Source: Nitrospirota bacterium | Lineage (GTDB): Bacteria > Nitrospirota > Thermodesulfovibrionia > Thermodesulfovibrionales > UBA1546 | Length of the DNA: 61,484 nucleotides | NCBI GenBank assembly: GCA_016208915.1 | Contig: JACQXE010000010.1 | Coordinates: 1 to 61,484, forward strand | Direction of reading: 5' to 3' | Shown: piece by piece, positions 5,516-31,950 of the stretch | How positions within the stretch are numbered: the first letter of the stretch is position 1 | How the letters are laid out: the number at the start of each line of letters is the position of its first letter | Program-made: the position numbers and the translations under genes | The notes under the pieces: model-generated | What the model was told of the DNA's origin: nothing | Seen by the model: only the letters and a program-made list of their open reading frames with translations | Database searches by the model: none

Positions 5516-7184
5516 GAAAAAGATTAACTTGGCAGTCGTTGTTCCATTATTTCTGCTGGTATTCCTTTTTGCTACAGATTTTGTTGGGGAGCATATGGCA
5601 GGTGATGCCATCCATAGGGATATTGCTGTCCATAGATATTTTAGTATTCCGTTGGTTGGATTTAGCCTGGGGCTGATGGTTTTTGTAGGTGTTCTTAAAA
5701 AAGGGTGGAGGCTGCCGTCTGCCCTGGCTGATTTTTTGAGTAGAAAATCGTTAGGCATTGTCATTGCATCTTCCGCAGTATTTACTATTTTTTTTTCCGC
5801 TGTTCTTATCCTAAGATATACGAGCTTTCATACGAGTGTTTATGAACTTGGAGGATACGATAACAAGATCTGGCGTATATCAGAGGAACTGTCTTTAGGT
5901 AAGAGTCTAATTGTTGCTGCAACAGGGCACTTCCAGCCGATACTGATTCTGCATGGGTTGCTTTATAAGATTAACAATTCACCAGTAGTAATCCTGATAG
6001 TTCAGGTTTTAACCGTTGTATCAGGAGTTATACCATTGTATCTGCTTGCTAAGGACATCCTTAAGGAATCTGTGTGGACATTGATGATTATCCTTCTTTA
6101 TCTACTATACCCTCCGGTAGAATTTAACAGCATAGCAGATTTTCATCCTGATCATTTTTATATTCCTTTATCATTGTGGGCTTTTTACTTTGCTGTTAGG
6201 AAGAATTATCTGATTTCTGTTTTGATGATAGGACTTGGAGCATTGTCCAAAGAACCATTGCTGCTTGGCGCTTCTTTTTGGGGGTTATACCTTATATTTA
6301 ATGCGAAACGTTATTGGCTGGGCTCATTTTCATTTATAGTTTTTATTTTGATTTTTTTTGTAGTTGTCCTTTACATACAACCTCATTTGGATCCAGGTCT
6401 GAAGAAACATAATATTAATATATTGCAGACAGAAAGTTTTTCTTATATGACTGACGCTGTAAACTATCCAAATGCAATATTTTCCGGCATATTTAAGGGG
6501 TTGATGAGAAAACTTCTCTTTTTATTTTTTATTCTGACGCCTTTTCTTTTCCTGCCCCTTTTAGGCTGTAAAGAGTTTTTGCCTGCAATTCCCCTTTTGG
6601 CAATCCCGTTTTTGTCTTCAAATCCTGCTCATTCCAATATAGAAAGCCAGTACACTGCAGGTATAATCGCACCTGTTTTTGTTGCATTTTTGGTCGTATT
6701 AGAAAAAATAAAGAATAAATCGGGAACTCGATACGCTGCTGCAATACTATCGTTTGTTACAGTAATGGTGGTTACATTTCATATAGCTAAAAGCCCTTCG
6801 CCTTTTTCCATAAATTTTTGGAGTCAACAATGGTCAGACACATGGAATTACAGTAACTATATATCCGGAGAGCATGAAAAGGCGATAAGGAATGTTGTTT
6901 GCCGCATTCCGGATGACCGCAATAAAGTGGTGGTTACGCAGAGTAATATCAATAACAAGTTGCTGTCTCACAGATTTGAGTACCGCGGCTTTCCTTATGA
7001 GTGGGAAGATGCAGATTATATTCTGTTGGATATGAAGAGGCCGCTTATGGTTGCAGACCGTATAGATGAAAAGGCATATATGGATGAGTTGAAAAAGCTG
7101 AGGAATAATCCCGGTTTTCAAATGGATTTTATGCAGGATGGTGTAATGGTATTTAAAAAAATAGGCAAGGCTAAAACAACCTGA
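5499..7184 (+). CDS. DUF2079-family polytopic membrane protein
   Basis: The 561-residue product is an inner-membrane protein with about a dozen hydrophobic segments. It carries the features of DUF2079: an early extracytoplasmic stretch YTSFHTSVYELGGYDNKIW (about residues 108-126), GHFQPILILHG, a FNSIADFHPDHFYIPL segment and a soluble C-terminal tail from about 440. Acidic and His residues after the first helices resemble GT-C glycosyltransferases, so a role in moving sugars from a lipid carrier is possible but unproven. ATG 5499 lies inside the paralogue remnant and has no clear Shine-Dalgarno. murJ follows after nine bases, so the two are probably cotranscribed. Confidence 0.75.
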   Translation: MISHFRKKINLAVVVPLFLLVFLFATDFVGEHMAGDAIHRDIAVHRYFSIPLVGFSLGLMVFVGVLKKGWRLPSALADFLSRKSLGIVIASSAVFTIFFSAVLILRYTSFHTSVYELGGYDNKIWRISEELSLGKSLIVAATGHFQPILILHGLLYKINNSPVVILIVQVLTVVSGVIPLYLLAKDILKESVWTLMIILLYLLYPPVEFNSIADFHPDHFYIPLSLWAFYFAVRKNYLISVLMIGLGALSKEPLLLGASFWGLYLIFNAKRYWLGSFSFIVFILIFFVVVLYIQPHLDPGLKKHNINILQTESFSYMTDAVNYPNAIFSGIFKGLMRKLLFLFFILTPFLFLPLLGCKEFLPAIPLLAIPFLSSNPAHSNIESQYTAGIIAPVFVAFLVVLEKIKNKSGTRYAAAILSFVTVMVVTFHIAKSPSPFSINFWSQQWSDTWNYSNYISGEHEKAIRNVVCRIPDDRNKVVVTQSNINNKLLSHRFEYRGFPYEWEDADYILLDMKRPLMVADRIDEKAYMDELKKLRNNPGFQMDFMQDGVMVFKKIGKAKTT

Positions 7185-20799: not shown

Positions 20800-21962
20800 G
20801 TTTTTGCCTTAAATAGATTTTCATACAGGGATTCAATTTTGTCGAGCATGTTCTCAAATGAATATTTTCTTTCTACAAGGCGTCTTCCTTTTTTGCCGAA
20901 TTCGATTCCAAGTTTAGGGTTTTCATAAAGCTCAATTGTCTTTTCTGCAATCTGGTATGGATTTTTGGGTTCGATGAGAAAACCTGTTTCTCTATTAATA
21001 ACTATCTCCTTTATTGCTCCTGCATCAGAAGCTATTACAGGTTTTTCCATCGCCATAGCCTGAAGTATCGACTGAGGCACACCCTCATTTGCATATGAGG
21101 GGTGGACAATGACATCAAATGATGCAAAAATTTGGGGGGTATCATTTCTGTGTCCGAGCATGAAAATTTTATTCTCGAGTGAAAATTCCGTGATCATTTT
21201 CTTTATGTTTTGCAGTTGAGGCCCATCTCCTGCTATATAGAAAAAGGCATCAGGTATTTTTTTTAATATATACGGCGCTGCCTCGATAAGGTATCTATGT
21301 CCTTTCCAGCTTCTCAAAACAGAGACCATGCCTATCAAAAACCCATCTTTAATTCCCCCTTGCCCCCCTTTAGTAAAGGGGGGCAAGGGGGAATTGTCAG
21401 AGGGTATGGGGAGATTTTTTAAGTAAAACGCTGGTTTAACCTTTGCCGGATTAAAAACTTCTGTGTCCACACCTGTGGGTATGGAAAATATCTTTGAACT
21501 ATCAAATTTGTTATCGTCTATCATCCTCTGTCGTATCTCTTCTCCTGTGGTAATCACAACATCAGGAAGTGTGTTATATAGAAGCCTGCTTAAGGGATTT
21601 TTAGCGATGGGCGTTGAGAGATGTCGTGTCCTCAGGATGAGCGGTTTTAATCTCGAGATCCTTGCAGCGATTGTGGCTACCCAACTATCAGAAGAGCTAT
21701 GCGTATTTATAATATCTATTCTCTTTCCTTTGATCAATGCAGCAATCTTTAAGAAATCTAAAAGATTTTTTTTCTTAAGTAAAAGAGGAAAAACAGCGAT
21801 GCCAGCATTATTGGCTCTACTGAAGATATTGCTCTCTTCAGGCGCTGCGATGTAGACCTTATGCCCTCTTCTTAACATGCCGAGGGACTCATTTATTATG
21901 CGAATCTCCTGTCCGCCCCAGCCGAGGGATGATTCAGTATGCAAGATGTTAAGTGGTTTCAT
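20796..21962 (-). CDS. GT4-family glycosyltransferase with in-frame palindromic insert
   Basis: First gene of the minus-strand glycan operon. The GT-B enzyme begins ILHTESSLGWGGQEIRII, a typical GT4 acceptor-domain start. It has AGDGPQL and the donor motif HPSYANEGVPQSILQAMAMEKPVIASDAGA with the conserved second Glu replaced by Gln-Ser-Ile, as in some GT4 members. At about residues 190-204 the sequence SPLPPFTKGGQGG is encoded by a perfect 21-bp-arm palindrome (21351-21395). It lies between the two Rossmann halves, at a linker. The stop overlaps the next start by four bases. Confidence 0.87.
   Translation of the reverse strand: MKPLNILHTESSLGWGGQEIRIINESLGMLRRGHKVYIAAPEESNIFSRANNAGIAVFPLLLKKKNLLDFLKIAALIKGKRIDIINTHSSSDSWVATIAARISRLKPLILRTRHLSTPIAKNPLSRLLYNTLPDVVITTGEEIRQRMIDDNKFDSSKIFSIPTGVDTEVFNPAKVKPAFYLKNLPIPSDNSPLPPFTKGGQGGIKDGFLIGMVSVLRSWKGHRYLIEAAPYILKKIPDAFFYIAGDGPQLQNIKKMITEFSLENKIFMLGHRNDTPQIFASFDVIVHPSYANEGVPQSILQAMAMEKPVIASDAGAIKEIVINRETGFLIEPKNPYQIAEKTIELYENPKLGIEFGKKGRRLVERKYSFENMLDKIESLYENLFKAKT
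21351..21395 (-). repeat. C/G-rich palindrome (21-bp perfect arms) inside a GT4 gene
   Basis: Arms 21351-21371 and 21375-21395 are exact reverse complements with a three-base AGT loop. Read on the coding strand it gives NSPLPPFTKGGQGGI. The same peptide type (PPLSKGGRWGG) is found in the prepilin genes at 30.4-31.8 kb. Confidence 0.9.
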
Positions 21963-23730: not shown

Positions 23731-23961
23731 AGACAGGATATAGTATTTTAGCTCATTCCCTGCCTGCCGGCAGGCAGGTCGGTCGTTACGACCTGCGAGT
23801 GTCATTCCTGCGAAAGCAGGAATCCAGAAAACTAAAACACTGGATTCTCGCCTCGGCGAGTCGCTGGGGTGACCGTGTCAAGCCTGCCTGACCGGTAGGC
23901 AGGCACGGAATGACAGAAAAAGATCGGCAAAATAATGCCGCTAAAATACTATATCCTGTCT
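23731..23961. mobile_element. MITE-like element with 22-bp perfect terminal inverted repeats
   Basis: Bases 23731-23752 and 23940-23961 are exact reverse complements (starting AGACAGGATATAGT and ending ATATCCTGTCT). The 187 bp between them hold nested palindromes: GCCTGCCGGCAGGC, a CCTGCGAAAGCAGG hairpin, and CTGCCTGACCGGTAGGCAG. There is no open reading frame. A 76-bp part (23800-23875) recurs in inverse orientation at 25517-25592. No clear target duplication is seen. It may be a non-autonomous transposon or a composite extragenic palindrome. Confidence 0.7.
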
Positions 23962-25469: not shown

Positions 25470-25592
25470 CTGTCATTCCGCACTTGCCTGCCCTCGAAGT
25501 CCTTAATCGGGGGATGCGGTCACCCCAGCGACTCGCCGAGGCGAGAATCCAGTGTTTTAGTTTTCTGGATTCCTGCTTTCGCAGGAATGACA
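25470..25592. repeat. Dispersed GTCATTCC palindromic repeat, copy C
   Basis: CTGTCATTCCG at 25470 is answered by GGAATGACA ending at 25592. Bases 25517-25592 are identical, in inverse orientation, to 23800-23875 in the MITE-like element. It fills the gap between the Uma2 gene and the end of the pilin operon. No gene is seen in it. Confidence 0.85.
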
Positions 25593-25662: not shown

Positions 25663-27495
25663 TTACGGATACACCTCTCGTTGGCTGATATTTGTTGCGT
25701 CAACATTCGGACCAATTGCCCAGTATAAAATCTGCCGTGCTGTGGCATCAGCAGTCGTCCAGTTTAAGGTAAAGCCATCGTTATCAAAGGAAACGAAGTC
25801 TGCACGGGCATTTACTGTTGCTGACCCTATTGCAAGGGTTATAACATCTGTGGTCGAAGTGTACATATTGGCTTCTGATGGGTCGAGATCACTGCGGTCT
25901 TGAAACCATATACTACCGCGTGATGTTGGTAATTTTGCAGAGCCTATTGAGATAGCTCCATTGCCAACAATGCCTGCTTGTGCTATAAGGTTAAAGCTTG
26001 CCAGCAGCAATTCCTCTGGTTTAAATCCAACCCCTGTTATAGTCTGATTTCCTGTTATTGCAGGTTGATTAAAAGAATCCACCTTATGCCTTCCTCCCTT
26101 TAAAGCAAGAAAAAAAACAGGGGTATTAGCCGCAGGGGCATCTGATTTGTTTACAGTGAAGCCATCAGCATCCATAGATACAAAATCAGCAATGGCATCC
26201 TGATTTGGCGGATTAGCATTTGGGTTCAACAATAAAATAGCAGCGTTAGTTCTCTGTTGCCATCTTTTTGATGTATTATCGGCCCTATTATTTCTGTCTG
26301 CAAATACCATAGCACTACGGGCTGTTGAACTCTGTGCAAACCCAATGCCAATCTCGGCGTTATTTCTATTAGAATCAACTGGTTCGTTAAAGCTCCATAG
26401 GAACATCACAAAATCAGGCTGGAAACCAACTCCTGTTACTGATTGAGTAGGTGGAACTATTGTTGTGTTTAAAGTAAATGTGCTGGCTAATGCATTTGTA
26501 ATATCTCCACCAAGGGCTATAAAGTGAATTCTATAGGCGTTTGGATCATTAGTTGTCCAGTTGAGTGTAAAACCATCCGCATCCAGTGAAGTCAATTCAG
26601 CTTGAGCTATCAATTGTGTGTTAGCACCAACATTACCACCATTTGTCAGAAAAATTATCGCATCGGATTCTGAGCGCCTTCTGCCTGCATCAGACTCATT
26701 AGAACTATCCATAGCTGTAACCGAAACAGCCCTTTCATTTGCAGCGCTTGTGGCAAAACCTATTCCTGCATTGGCGTTAGCAGAAAAATTTGGAGGCGGG
26801 GTAGTCTGTTGTGTCCAGACGAATATCACTGCCTTGGGCCTGAAGCCGATGCCTGTAATTGCTTGACTTACTGGAGCAACGCCGGTTGGTTTGGTAAAAC
26901 TTCCCCTATATGTGCTTATTCCTTCCACAGCCCTTTCCACCACTCGTTTGGTGGGGTTAGCAAGGGGATTAGAGGCGATACTCCCTTCTGATCTGATACT
27001 ACACTGGTTCTGATACACAGGAGTAGTATTTAAATGACCAGTTGCAGTAGTCCCTGCAACTCCTCTCTGCGCATTTATAAAATTGTTTCCTGATATGCTG
27101 CCATAGAAAATCTCCTCTGAATCAATCCTGATTCGTCCTTGAGGAGCATAGCCCGCGGTTGATGCTACAGGGATGGTCGTATCTGCAGCTAAAATATTGT
27201 TCGAGAGAGTAGTCGCAGGTGAGGGGTTATACAAATATGGATAAGGCGGCACTGAAGCAGTAAAATCAGTGGTAAAAGAACCGTTTCCTAAAGTAGAGGA
27301 ATATACAAGCGAATTACAGCTTGTGCCAGTTTTATAAAACTCATTCAGTGCCCTTTCTATTCCTCCCTCTGCAATATTAAACGCCTGTTGTCCCTGAAGT
27401 TCCTGAACTCCGATATTGGCTCCTGTTGTAATCAATGAGACTGCGACAGAAATAAGCAAAGCGAATATCAGAAGGGCTAAGACTGTTGCAATCAA
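25663..27495 (-). CDS. PilX-like minor pilin with three tandem adhesin-like repeats
   Basis: Residues 1-50 are the PilX_N pattern: a long hydrophobic helix (LIATVLALLIFALLISVAVS) followed by QQAFNIAEGGIE. Residues about 88-165 hold a module with IPVASTAGYAPQGRIRIDSE. Residues about 205-600 are three tandem copies of a 120-130-residue unit marked by TGIGF/VGFxP, a GIGFA-type strand, and FVS-DADGFTLNW, ending before each next TGVGF. This fits a large minor pilin exposed at a pilus tip. The formal start is TTG 27495. An upstream ATG frame (about 27536) ends with TGA overlapping this TTG and would supply the leader if joined. The first 141 bp are identical to the next gene's. Confidence 0.75.
   Translation of the reverse strand: MIATVLALLIFALLISVAVSLITTGANIGVQELQGQQAFNIAEGGIERALNEFYKTGTSCNSLVYSSTLGNGSFTTDFTASVPPYPYLYNPSPATTLSNNILAADTTIPVASTAGYAPQGRIRIDSEEIFYGSISGNNFINAQRGVAGTTATGHLNTTPVYQNQCSIRSEGSIASNPLANPTKRVVERAVEGISTYRGSFTKPTGVAPVSQAITGIGFRPKAVIFVWTQQTTPPPNFSANANAGIGFATSAANERAVSVTAMDSSNESDAGRRRSESDAIIFLTNGGNVGANTQLIAQAELTSLDADGFTLNWTTNDPNAYRIHFIALGGDITNALASTFTLNTTIVPPTQSVTGVGFQPDFVMFLWSFNEPVDSNRNNAEIGIGFAQSSTARSAMVFADRNNRADNTSKRWQQRTNAAILLLNPNANPPNQDAIADFVSMDADGFTVNKSDAPAANTPVFFLALKGGRHKVDSFNQPAITGNQTITGVGFKPEELLLASFNLIAQAGIVGNGAISIGSAKLPTSRGSIWFQDRSDLDPSEANMYTSTTDVITLAIGSATVNARADFVSFDNDGFTLNWTTADATARQILYWAIGPNVDATNISQREVYP
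27355..27495 (-). repeat. 141-bp exact direct repeat, copy 1 (5' end of PilX-like gene)
   Basis: Bases 27355-27495 are identical to 28793-28933. Each copy ends at the TTG used as formal start codon and covers the N-terminal helix of a PilX-like protein. Sequence on either side differs. Confidence 0.93.
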
Positions 27496-27538
27496 CCTGA
27501 CTGGCTCTGAGATTTAATATATTTATAATTTCCCATAG

Positions 27539-28933
27539 CTAAAATACTTCATTCATCATAACCTTCATTGTCCCTGCAGAAGCTGAAAACATTGGGCCTG
27601 CTGTTGAACCTCCACCGCGGATAACGCCTCCTATGTTTCTGGTCCACTGCTGAGTTTGACCTGCGAATGGAGTTACATTAGTAGGCTCAGAGGCAATGGT
27701 GTCTACAACCCATGCATTAGGTGTGGCTATGGATACATTAGCACTGGCATTATTGCCTGTGCCATAGCCAAACACAGCTTGTGAATCAAGTGGATTTATC
27801 TGGTCAACTCCAGTTAAGGAAACAGCGCCGTAGATGAAGGATGACATTGCTGACATGTTTACTATTACATTATAAGCCCCTGAGGATGGATTCACTAAAT
27901 ACCAGAGTTCAACTCGAATAATATTACCCGGGCCTGGATGGCTTAAAAATCCGGCGCGGGTTAATGCCTGGCCAGCATAGGTTACAGTAGAGACACTTAT
28001 ATTATTTCTGATTGAGAGGCCTACCACCAAGATACGGTTTGAACCAGAAGTTGTATGAGACCATGTAATTGTATTAACAGTATTTGCTGCTCCACTGGTT
28101 GTAGAATCAAAGGCTATAGAGTTGTCTGAGATAGGTCTAATAGGCATTGCACCGAGAGCCCAGTTTTTTGAAGCTGCAAGCGTCCAGCCTATTGGAGTGC
28201 TTCTTATCCGTGATGTCATGTCAGCCCTGACAATCCTCTGTGTGGGATTTGCTAAAGGGTTTGAAGATATTACCCCTTTGGAACGGAACATGTACTGAAA
28301 AACATTGTTTCCAGCAGGATGAGCAGCAGCAGGGGTGCTGTTATAACCTCTGGTGCAGTTTGTAAATTGGGTTGTTGAGGGCGCATTGGTGTTTGCGCAA
28401 TAAATATTCTCGCTGTCTATGTTGAGAATACCGGGGATTACAAACCCTGTTGTTGAAGCAACATTAATAGTTGTATCACCAATAGCGATTGGGTTCGGGA
28501 TTACAGTAGTTACAGGATAAACAGCATTGCCATTCGTATGTGCAGCAGTCGCGGGTCCTGCTCCGGTAAAGCTGTTTGCGGTAGTGCCGGTATATGCAAT
28601 TACCTCAGAATCAATCACGAGTCTTCCTGCCGGGCTTGCGGAACCGGTTGTAGAATTCACGTTTATCGTATTATTACCAATGGCAACCGCTCCCGTGAGA
28701 TATGTGGGCGTGAAAACTATGAAACTTCCTGCCCCAAGGTTCTTTGCCGCTGTCAGCGAATAGTTCGGGAATGTCCGATTTTCTAAAATATATTCTATTC
28801 CTCCCTCTGCAATATTAAACGCCTGTTGTCCCTGAAGTTCCTGAACTCCGATATTGGCTCCTGTTGTAATCAATGAGACTGCGACAGAAATAAGCAAAGC
28901 GAATATCAGAAGGGCTAAGACTGTTGCAATCAA
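27539..28933 (-). CDS. PilX-like minor pilin with beta-rich passenger domain
   Basis: The N-terminal helix is identical to that of the neighbouring PilX-like protein. Two copies of a 60-residue module follow (IGNNTINVNSTTGSASPAGR…IDSE and IGDTTINVASTTGFVIPGIL…IDSE). The last part is a lectin-like beta domain: TITWSHTTSGSNRILVVGLS, VTYAGQALTRAG, VELWYLVNPSSGAYNVIV and GVDQINPLDS. It should be exported and assembled as a minor pilin. The formal start is TTG 28933. ATG 28965 opens a short frame MKLSNTQSGLS that stops at TGA overlapping the TTG. Reading both as one would place Gly before the helix, as prepilin peptidase requires. Confidence 0.75.
   Translation of the reverse strand: MIATVLALLIFALLISVAVSLITTGANIGVQELQGQQAFNIAEGGIEYILENRTFPNYSLTAAKNLGAGSFIVFTPTYLTGAVAIGNNTINVNSTTGSASPAGRLVIDSEVIAYTGTTANSFTGAGPATAAHTNGNAVYPVTTVIPNPIAIGDTTINVASTTGFVIPGILNIDSENIYCANTNAPSTTQFTNCTRGYNSTPAAAHPAGNNVFQYMFRSKGVISSNPLANPTQRIVRADMTSRIRSTPIGWTLAASKNWALGAMPIRPISDNSIAFDSTTSGAANTVNTITWSHTTSGSNRILVVGLSIRNNISVSTVTYAGQALTRAGFLSHPGPGNIIRVELWYLVNPSSGAYNVIVNMSAMSSFIYGAVSLTGVDQINPLDSQAVFGYGTGNNASANVSIATPNAWVVDTIASEPTNVTPFAGQTQQWTRNIGGVIRGGGSTAGPMFSASAGTMKVMMNEVF
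28793..28933 (-). repeat. 141-bp exact direct repeat, copy 2 (5' end of PilX-like gene)
   Basis: This is the partner of 27355-27495. The boundary on the upstream side falls at the TTG codon in both genes. Confidence 0.93.
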
Positions 28934-28975
28934 GAAAGACCTGATTGAGTATTTGAGAGTTTCATTATAGATTAC

Positions 28976-29437
28976 TCAGGTGGATTTTCCTTTCTTGTTC
29001 TTTATGGTCTTTTCTTGTTTAAGAAATACGACAATATAGCCAAGATATGCATCAAAGTCCTTAAGATGCTTCCTTAATATTCCATAGACCTTTGCAACAT
29101 CCACTTTTGCATAATTATGAACCATAAGATTCCTGAAACTTGCCATATCCTTCAACCTGTTTAAAAAGGGCGGGGGGACTGCCCTGTTTTCAGAAAGAAC
29201 GCTGAAAGTGTCCGCGTTGCTTGTAGGTTCTCTGAAACCTTTTGAGGAAATAATATGATTTGCAAGGTCAAGGCACGCTTCAATATCTATTTGCAGGGTT
29301 CTTTCAACGTATCGCTGAGTTTTTTTATCTGATTTGAAATCTGAAATTCTTTTATATGAAGCGGCAACCTCTTTTAAGTCCCGGGTATATTCTGAGATTA
29401 GAGAAATAAGTCTGTCGGTAATTTCTCTATCTGTCAT
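28976..29437 (-). CDS. hepT: HepT-like HEPN toxin
   Basis: The 153-residue helical product has the HEPN/DUF86 active-site motif R-x4-H-x-Y as RNLMVHNY at about residues 109-116. HepT proteins are ribonucleases that are silenced when the partner MntA adds AMP to the Tyr of this motif. The start overlaps the antitoxin stop by four bases. All catalytic residues are present. The pair sits inside a run of minor-pilin genes on the same strand, only 11 bases before the next pilin leader ATG, so it is probably cotranscribed with them. Confidence 0.88.
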   Translation of the reverse strand: MTDREITDRLISLISEYTRDLKEVAASYKRISDFKSDKKTQRYVERTLQIDIEACLDLANHIISSKGFREPTSNADTFSVLSENRAVPPPFLNRLKDMASFRNLMVHNYAKVDVAKVYGILRKHLKDFDAYLGYIVVFLKQEKTIKNKKGKST

Positions 29438-29850
29438 TTTGCCGTCTGTAGAATCCTGTTCTTTAATGTTTTCATATAGTTATTGTGTCTGTAAAGAAAG
29501 TCAAAATATTTTTTCCTTGATTCTACTACATAATCAATGCGAAACTCAGGAGCTTTATCTACAAGAATCATCCCGTGTTTGCGAATCTGGTGCTCCAGTA
29601 TAGGGTCAGCAGTGCCCAATAAGACAACATCAACACGCTTTTTTAATAATGTCTCAAGATCAGACATTATTCTTAATTGGATGTCTGTTGGTTTATACGG
29701 ATTGATTCCCGGATTTAAAAGAACAGCAATATCTATATCACTGCCCTTTTTTTCTGCGGCCTTCGCCGTAGAGCCGAATAAATAGACGGCAGAAATCTTT
29801 TTATTGTCTTTAAAATAATCCCTTATCTGTTTCAATTGTTTGCGTTCCAT
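29434..29850 (-). CDS. mntA: MntA-like nucleotidyltransferase antitoxin
   Basis: The 138-residue product has the exact minimal nucleotidyltransferase motif G-S-x10-D-x-D (LFGSTAKAAEKKGSDIDIAVL, residues about 24-44). MntA uses ATP to AMPylate HepT. A TATAAT (29857-29862 on the minus strand), preceded by TG as in an extended -10, lies six bases before the ATG. A local promoter would give an almost leaderless mRNA, and no Shine-Dalgarno is seen. It starts 12 bases after the pilW-like stop. Confidence 0.9.
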   Translation of the reverse strand: MERKQLKQIRDYFKDNKKISAVYLFGSTAKAAEKKGSDIDIAVLLNPGINPYKPTDIQLRIMSDLETLLKKRVDVVLLGTADPILEHQIRKHGMILVDKAPEFRIDYVVESRKKYFDFLYRHNNYMKTLKNRILQTAK

Positions 29851-29862
29851 ACGATAATTATA

Positions 29863-30480
29863 TCATAAACTTCTCGGCCAGACCTCTGATTGAAGCGTAA
29901 CACTTTCGCCGGAGACAGTAGATGTTATTACGAGCCTTATTCTTTTTGTATTTGCAGCGCTGAATGCAGCATCGGATGTCCCATCTGATCTGATGTAACT
30001 GAGTGTTAAAGCTGTAATATTATTCGCAAGCGTATTACCCGCACCTCCGGGACACGCTGCAGGCTCTTCTCGTATTATGGTGTTTGATGAATATCTGAAG
30101 CTGACCATTGTGCCGTCTGTATTTATGAAACAGAACTGTGTTGCATTTCCTGTCCCTACATCAGCGCTACTGCGTACATTCCTTATCTCCCTCGTCGTTC
30201 TCTCCATGGCAATTCTTACCTGCTGTAGCGCCTCATTGCGGTTGTCTGTTGCAAAAAAGGCCTTTAGTCCTGTTGATATGGCATCAGCAGCGATAAAGGC
30301 AACGATACTTATCAAAACCATAGTTATTACAAGCTCGATGAGGGTAAAACCTTTCTTGCCACGATGCATGATGCACGATGCACGATGCAGGTTTCTACCC
30401 CCCCATCGCCCCCCCTTGGCAAGGGGGGGATTAAAGGGGGGGTAACTTTCAACTTTCAACTTTTGACTCTTAATTTTCAC
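29863..30480 (-). CDS. PilW/GspJ-like minor prepilin with repeat-built leader
   Basis: After GKKG the mature protein starts FTLIELVITMVLISIVAF, with Glu at +5 and a hydrophobic helix as in class III signals. ALQQVRIAMERTTREIRNVR follows, typical of PilW/GspJ. ATG 30480 has AGGAGAGG ten bases upstream, so it is probably the real start. That gives a leader of about 44 residues instead of 6-10. The leader is made of two heptamer arrays and a C/G-rich palindrome (PPFNPPLAKGGRWGG). The leader should be removed by prepilin peptidase. An ATG at 30369 would give a normal short leader but lacks a ribosome-binding site. Confidence 0.8.
   Translation of the reverse strand: MKIKSQKLKVESYPPFNPPLAKGGRWGGRNLHRASCIMHRGKKGFTLIELVITMVLISIVAFIAADAISTGLKAFFATDNRNEALQQVRIAMERTTREIRNVRSSADVGTGNATQFCFINTDGTMVSFRYSSNTIIREEPAACPGGAGNTLANNITALTLSYIRSDGTSDAAFSAANTKRIRLVITSTVSGESVTLQSEVWPRSL
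30360..30390 (-). repeat. Heptamer tandem repeat (CACGATG x4)
   Basis: CACGATG, CATGATG, CACGATG and CACGATG follow each other (plus-strand reading). They encode part of the long leader of the PilW-like prepilin. Confidence 0.85.
30395..30443 (-). repeat. C/G-rich palindrome in the PilW-like leader
   Basis: A C-rich left arm and G-rich right arm flank CTTGGCAAG. On the coding strand it reads PPFNPPLAKGGRWGG. Same family as 21351-21395. Confidence 0.85.
30444..30471 (-). repeat. Heptamer tandem repeat (AACTTTC)
   Basis: AACTTTC, AACTTTC, AACTTTT and GACTCTT follow each other with a 7-bp period, just after the PilW-like start codon. Confidence 0.8.
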
Positions 30481-30577: not shown

Positions 30578-31231
30578 TCAGTAATTTGTCACCACTGTTA
30601 CAAGCTCAACAGAGCCGAGGTTTGTATTTGTGACAGTTACCTTTATACGTTTGTAATCAGTAGTTGTGTTGCATGTTGATGTGTCGTTGAGATTAGAAGC
30701 AGGGACATAGCAGACCTCTACAGTTGTAGTATAGCTTGGCCCTCCCCATGTGCATGACTCTGGATAATTGCTGTAGTCATCTACATCGTCGAATGGAATT
30801 GCTGATGTTCCTGTGCATGCTGTTCGTGTCTCGCCTTCTGTACCGAGCGCGCCTGGAGAGCCTGTTCCTGAACAATTTGCTGCTCCGGTCTTGAATTCAT
30901 CCCAGCATTTTGATTTGACTTCTTCCATTAATTTTTGAGCGACATTTGTTGCGTTGATCATTAATTCAGCATTTACTCCTTGCTGAGTTTCCTGACCGAG
31001 CACCAGAAGCAGGGCAGGAATAGCAATCGCAGCGATAACTATTATCATTACTGTCTCAATAAGGGTAAAACCTTTTTTACCCCCCCATCGCCCCCCCTTA
31101 CTAAGGGGGGGATGGGGGGGTGAACAGTGAATAGTGAATAGTTTTTTCAGGCAACTTTTAACTTTTAACTTTTTTGCCTCAAGCGAACCCGCCCAAGGCG
31201 GGAAACTCTTAACTTCTGTCATTTTCATCAA
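30578..31231 (-). CDS. PilV/GspI-like minor prepilin with repeat-built leader
   Basis: Mature sequence after GGKKG is FTLIETVMIIVIAAIAIPALL, the class III helix with Glu+5. It is followed by NATNVAQKLMEEVKSKCWDEF, the PilV/GspI pattern, and a Cys-containing C-terminal part. The start ATGATGAAAATG overlaps the upstream stop by four bases and has an AGGAAGGG sequence upstream, so the natural start seems kept. The leader is then about 54 residues long and is encoded by a GC-rich palindrome, two heptamer arrays (31121-31141, 31153-31173) and the PPHPPLSKGGRWGG unit. No short-leader Met exists. Confidence 0.8.
   Translation of the reverse strand: MMKMTEVKSFPPWAGSLEAKKLKVKSCLKKLFTIHCSPPHPPLSKGGRWGGKKGFTLIETVMIIVIAAIAIPALLLVLGQETQQGVNAELMINATNVAQKLMEEVKSKCWDEFKTGAANCSGTGSPGALGTEGETRTACTGTSAIPFDDVDDYSNYPESCTWGGPSYTTTVEVCYVPASNLNDTSTCNTTTDYKRIKVTVTNTNLGSVELVTVVTNY
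31080..31173 (-). repeat. Palindrome plus two heptamer arrays in the PilV-like leader
   Basis: 31080-31120 is the C/G-rich palindrome (centre TTACTAA). 31121-31141 is TGAACAG, TGAATAG, TGAATAG. 31153-31173 is AACTTTT three times. Three repeat units of different type lie next to each other between the start codon and the prepilin cleavage site. Confidence 0.85.
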
Positions 31232-31950
31232 TAGCTTACCCTTCCTGTTACAGCCTCAACGGTTATGGTCTTTGATGTTGTACTTGGATAAGAGACGGTC
31301 ACTGTCTGTGTAGCGAGATTAGCCCCTGCAGCAGTCACCGGTTTGCCAAGAGAATCGAATGCTATTGTGGCAGCAGAGAAAGCTAAAGTTACCCCGCTGT
31401 ATGTACTGCATCTGTTTTGCGTGAAATCAACAACGAAATTATTTGATGAGTCTGACGAACATGAGTCGCCAGGGCTCATTGCGGCAGTCGGAACTGTTAT
31501 GTCCTGAAAAATGCTGTAACCATTTGTATTGAAAGTTATCCCTGCCCTCGTCTGATTTGATATGGAGAGTTTCTGTGAATACCGTATGTCTGCGGCAATT
31601 TTTCTTGTAGCACTGTAAATCTTAATATCATTGAAAGGATTTTTTAAAACAACTACAGCAGCAAGAATGGCCACGATGAACATTACGATTATTGTTTCGA
31701 TGAGTGTAAAGCCTCTACCCCCCCTTCGCCCCCCCTTGCTAAGGGGGGGATGGGGGGGTGACGAGTGAACAGTGAACAGTTTTCTTGAATAACTTTCACC
31801 TGAAAATCCACCTTTTGTCATGCTGGCTTGTCCAGCATCCTTCTTTCCCGCACTCAGGCGGGTTTGCTGTGGCGAGAAGAAAGATTCCCGACAAGCGGGA
31901 ATGACATTTTCATTCTCCTTTCCGCTGACCTGCCGGCATGTGTGTTTCAT
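31228..31950 (-). CDS. FimT/GspH-like minor prepilin with repeat-built leader
   Basis: The mature part starts after GRG with FTLIETIIVMFIVAILAAVV, then IAADIRYSQKLSISNQTRAG and TQNRCSTYSGVTLAF, typical of FimT/GspH, which begin minor-pilin operons. ATG 31950 is preferred to ATG 32019 because the latter would start beyond the tRNA promoter at 31981-32010; neither has a good ribosome-binding site. The leader is unusually long (about 80 residues). It includes a translated GTCATTCC repeat (ENVIPACRESFFSPQQ…) and PPHPPLSKGGRRGG. Confidence 0.75.
   Translation of the reverse strand: MKHTCRQVSGKENENVIPACRESFFSPQQTRLSAGKKDAGQASMTKGGFSGESYSRKLFTVHSSPPHPPLSKGGRRGGRGFTLIETIIVMFIVAILAAVVVLKNPFNDIKIYSATRKIAADIRYSQKLSISNQTRAGITFNTNGYSIFQDITVPTAAMSPGDSCSSDSSNNFVVDFTQNRCSTYSGVTLAFSAATIAFDSLGKPVTAAGANLATQTVTVSYPSTTSKTITVEAVTGRVSY
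31718..31779 (-). repeat. C/G-rich palindrome plus heptamer array in the FimT-like leader
   Basis: 31718-31758 is the palindrome (centre CTTGCTAAG). 31759-31779 is TGACGAG, TGAACAG, TGAACAG with a 7-bp period. Confidence 0.85.
31816..31907. repeat. Dispersed GTCATTCC palindromic repeat, copy E, inside the FimT-like leader
   Basis: TTGTCATGCTGG…CCAGCA starts the unit, and GATTCCCGACAAGCGGGAATGAC ends it at 31907. It is translated as part of the FimT-like leader. Confidence 0.75.

Follow-up and report, generated by a model that had tools for sequence, protein, structure and literature searches.

A 141-bp repeat and leader-helix breaks in two tandem PilX-like genes of a Nitrospirota genome: most likely an assembly join

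The tandem pilX genes and their surroundings

Two adjacent genes in a Nitrospirota metagenome-assembled genome appear, judged from their sequence and order, to be tandem PilX-like minor-pilin genes, here called gene 1 (X1) and gene 2 (X2). They lie on the minus strand of the window, by which we mean the whole stretch of 61,484 nucleotides that was analysed (contig JACQXE010000010.1), and GspH-, PilV- and PilW-like prepilin genes are found upstream of them (Table 1). The pair follows the PilW-like gene, with a toxin-antitoxin pair in between. The genes resemble PilX-type minor pilins (PilX_N, PF14341; pilW-pilX operons) in this position, in a short leader ending in Gly, in a hydrophobic helix without Glu5 and in an AEGG motif. 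They are unlike these pilins in that the frames in the window have no joined leader and the large bodies carry no Pfam domain above the cut-off. The window proteins gave no PilX_N match in the Pfam search; of 14 N-termini from close homologues, 7 matched at E values of 0.1 or below, the best being 4.4e-07. The initial annotation, which had taken the two genes to be PilX-like prepilin genes, appears to be right. A sequence search of solved structures returned nothing useful.

The body of gene 1 is 53% identical over 449 residues to a homologue with an intact leader (G014 C19). The dN/dS between the two is about 0.19, a rough value with synonymous sites near saturation, and gene 1 looks functional because its body is thus under purifying selection. 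Gene 2 shows 34% identity over 517 residues to the second pilX gene of another relative, G003. We also observed three internal (I/V)TG(I/V)GF(R/Q/K)P-like repeats in the body of gene 2 (ITGIGFRPKAVIFVW, VTGVGFQPDFVMFLW and ITGVGFKPEELLLAS). The leader ATG lies 10 nt past the hepT stop in gene 1 and 2 nt past the stop of gene 1 in gene 2, and this tight spacing to the preceding genes marks both ATGs as the natural gene starts.

Table 1. Features of the pilX locus, in window coordinates
Feature	Position	Strand	Remarks
PilW-like prepilin (N_methyl), upstream gene of the minor-pilin operon	29863..30480	-	Pfam
MntA-HepT type toxin-antitoxin pair	28976-29850	-	nucleotidyltransferase 29434-29850, HepT-like 28976-29437
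Gene 1 leader frame, MKLSNTQSGLS	28930..28965	-	ATG 28965, TGA 28932-28930; matches homologue leader M...SG(L/F/M/V)S
141-bp identical segment, gene 1 copy	28793..28933	-	47 codons, alpha-1 helix; repeat comparison
Gene 1 (X1), PilX-like helix and 464-aa frame	27539..28933	-	readable from TTG only
Gene 2 leader frame, MGNYKYIKSQSQSG	27492..27536	-	ATG 27536, TGA 27494-27492; without the (L/F/M/V)-S codons
141-bp identical segment, gene 2 copy	27355..27495	-	repeat comparison
Gene 2 (X2), PilX-like helix and 610-aa frame	25663..27495	-	readable from TTG only

Several other features were observed around the operon. The MntA-HepT pair sits exactly between pilW and gene 1; the relatives have pilX next to pilW or sharing 4 nt with it, and pilX comes directly after pilW in G011, G001 and G006. 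G+C-rich palindromic units occur at 30392-30431, 31074-31113 and 31712-31751, and also at 21346-21385. The first three fall within the leader-coding regions of three prepilin genes nearby, where such units add peptides, e.g. PPLSKGGRWGG, ahead of the prepilin cleavage site. A perfect 76-bp inverted repeat (23800-23875 and 25517-25592), its arms 1.64 kb apart, flanks a group of small genes.

The shared segment and the frame at its edge

Gene 1 and gene 2 share a 100% identical direct repeat of 141 bp, the longest repeat within the window, and a search of the window's own genome recovered two copies only. Both copies open with TTG ATT GCA ACA, and each of these TTG codons overlaps the TGA stop of a short ATG frame, which confirms the identical 5' segments at a TTGA stop/start junction described by the initial annotation. 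Downstream of the segment the two proteins differ. At one edge of the 141-bp unit the reading frame runs on in both genes; at the other edge it breaks in both. As assembled, leader and helix are out of frame with each other in both genes, so neither reads as a type IV prepilin with a class III signal peptide.

The homologues carry leader and helix fused in one open frame, in 13 of the 13 close ones and in all the more distant ones read, the latter taken from the order and from named genomes. The consensus ahead of the helix is M...SG(L/F/M/V)S, with G and S invariant in all 14 sequences aligned with leaders, and the TTGA stop/start break is absent from every homologue read. An alignment of homologues had been proposed as a check for an intact leader-helix frame, and the frame is intact in all of them; joining leader and helix does restore a normal class III signal peptide in which Gly precedes the helix, as had been claimed, and this is the arrangement of all homologues examined. 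The named related contigs come mostly from metagenome-assembled genomes of Nitrospirota, and many bear the label Nitrospirae or Thermodesulfovibrionales. The contig scan for a second assembly of the same species found other species only, and the relatives searched included no genome of the same genus.

Aligned with the homologues and their leaders, gene 1 is 1 nt short and gene 2 is 7 nt short, the latter lacking two codons (L/F/M/V and S) and one base. As sequence events the two breaks differ and have the frame offset alone in common, which is what stands of the earlier description of the same one-base break in both genes.

Overlapping stop and start codons can couple translation. Such an overlap is present in both genes, and gene 1 has an AGG 6 nt upstream of the TTG, so a functional TTGA junction could be imagined, with the pilin made by termination and reinitiation at TTG or by a -1 shift, perhaps in a leaderless or regulated form. 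We consider this very unlikely. The AGG of gene 2 abuts the TTG and leaves no usable spacing, and the stop/start arrangement occurs in no homologue. No slippery heptamer of the form X XXY YYZ is present at TCT TGA and GGT TGA, RNA folding around the junctions is no better than that of shuffles (z-scores 0.05 and 0.29), and the Rfam search found only two tRNAs nearby. A programmed frameshift or RNA element is rejected on the non-conservation, the folding and the Rfam result; neither the frameshifting suggested earlier nor reinitiation at TTG gained positive evidence. A TTG-started product would also be without the leader and the Gly, both of which prepilin peptidase needs in a class III signal peptide (PMC4471445). 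It is even more improbable that the junction is both real and used, with tandem minor pilins made leaderless by TTGA reinitiation and taken into the pilus without prepilin-peptidase cleavage.

The constant segment ahead of unlike bodies in adjacent genes had also suggested cassette-like exchange, in which a dedicated system would swap passenger domains behind a constant 141-bp anchor. We regard such a system as highly improbable, and found no positive evidence of it. Neither silent cassettes nor a third copy of the anchor was found in the genome, and no recombinase is evident beside the genes in the list of open reading frames. The homologues of the two bodies carry their own, different helix (G014 for gene 1, G003b for gene 2), and the helices of the tandem pilX genes are divergent in G003, as are those of the two pilX genes in G014.

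Repeat lengths in the assembly and the origin of the breaks

The length of the shared segment equals the overlap length of the assembly graph, 141 in both. The repeat survey covered 1.84 Mb of the 2.51-Mb genome, with the starts of all 88 contigs and the ends of most. Exactly 141 bases are shared by 35 contig-end pairs and 134-140 bases by further pairs, and none of the exact repeats in the 1.84 Mb exceeds 142 bases. This pattern marks a graph assembly of short reads in which contigs overlap by 141 bases. Contigs from MEGAHIT overlap by maxK, and the usual k list ends in 141 (PMC10914622). The pilX segment is like the maxK contig-end overlaps of short-read metagenomes, on which COBRA is based (PMC10914622), in having exactly 141 identical bases, and unlike them in that it occurs twice inside one contig and not at contig ends. 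Interior repeats, with both copies inside contigs, become fewer with length and then pile up at 137-142, where there are six, three of them at exactly 141 (the window repeat being one), versus six for the whole range from 101 to 136. Two such k-length segments meet with a 6 bp overlap at C44:6501-6774.

A cobJ-like gene (C6:2303-2966 and C35:2252-2877; L191, L192) is split at the same place in two strain variants, with a different low-complexity filler in each variant right after a shared 141-bp segment. We considered this break as a second seam and left it aside as ambiguous, the fillers differing between both strain variants.

The initial annotation held that two alike breaks argue against error. 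The breaks, however, adjoin a segment with the overlap length of the assembly, and one shared cause can therefore explain both: the joining may have gone through a collapsed repeat, or gene conversion may have carried a single deletion from one gene to the other. Random sequencing error at two sites was rejected as unnecessary, both breaks being on the same edge of one repeat.

We consider an error of assembly joining, with moderate confidence, to be the most likely origin of the leader-helix breaks. Two ordinary tandem PilX-type genes downstream of pilW would carry near-identical 5' helix segments, and the shared helix segment would form a repeat at or above the k-mer size of the assembler (141). 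The joins would then carry the contig twice through the repeat and abut each upstream leader on the 141-base k-mer segment, the single nucleotide of gene 1 and the seven of gene 2 being lost at the joins. We infer that faulty joining removed the missing bases and that the two genes in truth share more than 141 bp. This account explains why the length is exact, why both breaks fall on one side, why gene 2 misses conserved codons and why the arrangement is seen in no homologue. Metagenome assemblies are documented to contain local errors that reads do not support, also in genes that bear repeats (PMC7111523).

Our confidence in an assembly join goes no higher because in a plain unitig graph with k = 141 the contig should end at the shared 141-mer and not run through it. 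Some near-k interior repeats also look natural (C5, 137 bp, mobile-element-like; C6/C35, strain-variant-like), so the length of 141 could be a coincidence. Moreover, a small inverted repeat, CAATCAGG...CTTGATTG, spans the break site, and at such a site a small deletion could truly occur.

An alternative hypothesis, the main rival to assembly error and in our view a possible but doubtful one, is that the breaks are real, a small leader-helix deletion in one gene having been followed by copying of the 5' segment to the other through gene conversion or recent duplication. Both genes would then be without a joined leader, gene 2 also lacking two codons, and would be recently inactivated or poorly expressed from TTG. 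The 141/141 identity between the copies is far beyond chance, because homologous helices in the relatives are 57-88% identical in DNA, and the 74% of the tandem pair in G003 points by comparison to recent homogenisation or a shared origin here. A break at the edge of the shared tract would allow a single event to serve both genes, the inverted repeat at the break fits a deletion, and the locus is fluid, with neighbouring changes such as the MntA-HepT pair before gene 1. Homogenisation does occur in this genome: tandem paralogues on C58 (not pilins; by eye of the TPR/coiled-coil type) have a perfect repeat of 99 bp in common at the 5' end of their coding sequence (C58:5533-5631 and 6745-6843). 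This repeat is below k and leaves the frames intact, which in turn counts for the assembly account of the pilX breaks.

The pilX pair is like known cases of gene conversion between tandem paralogues in that perfect identity is confined to one segment of diverged genes. It is unlike them in that the tract ends at exactly k with a frame break, an outcome not expected from conversion. The agreement of the shared length with the assembly k argues against real breaks, as does the extra 6-nt loss that would be required of gene 2 at the same edge. The frames of 464 and 610 codons are still open and gene 1 is conserved, so any inactivation would be very recent. The homogenised helix itself may nevertheless be the product of real gene conversion, also if the breaks come from assembly.

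Meaning for the pilin pair

When a repeat is exactly as long as the assembly k and genes break on its edge, it should first be handled as a seam and only then be given a biological reading. The break here is most likely not a new genetic mechanism, and neither a new translation mechanism nor a cassette mechanism is indicated. If the leaderless case were true, it would challenge the view that prepilin peptidase must cleave pilins, and if the break were real, the pilin pair would have undergone a recent double inactivation by a shared tract. The relation between leader and helix is real and the break probably is not. In the living organism both genes would most likely encode normal prepilins, in which the leader would be kept in the cytoplasm, prepilin peptidase would cut after the Gly and the helix would pack in the pilus.
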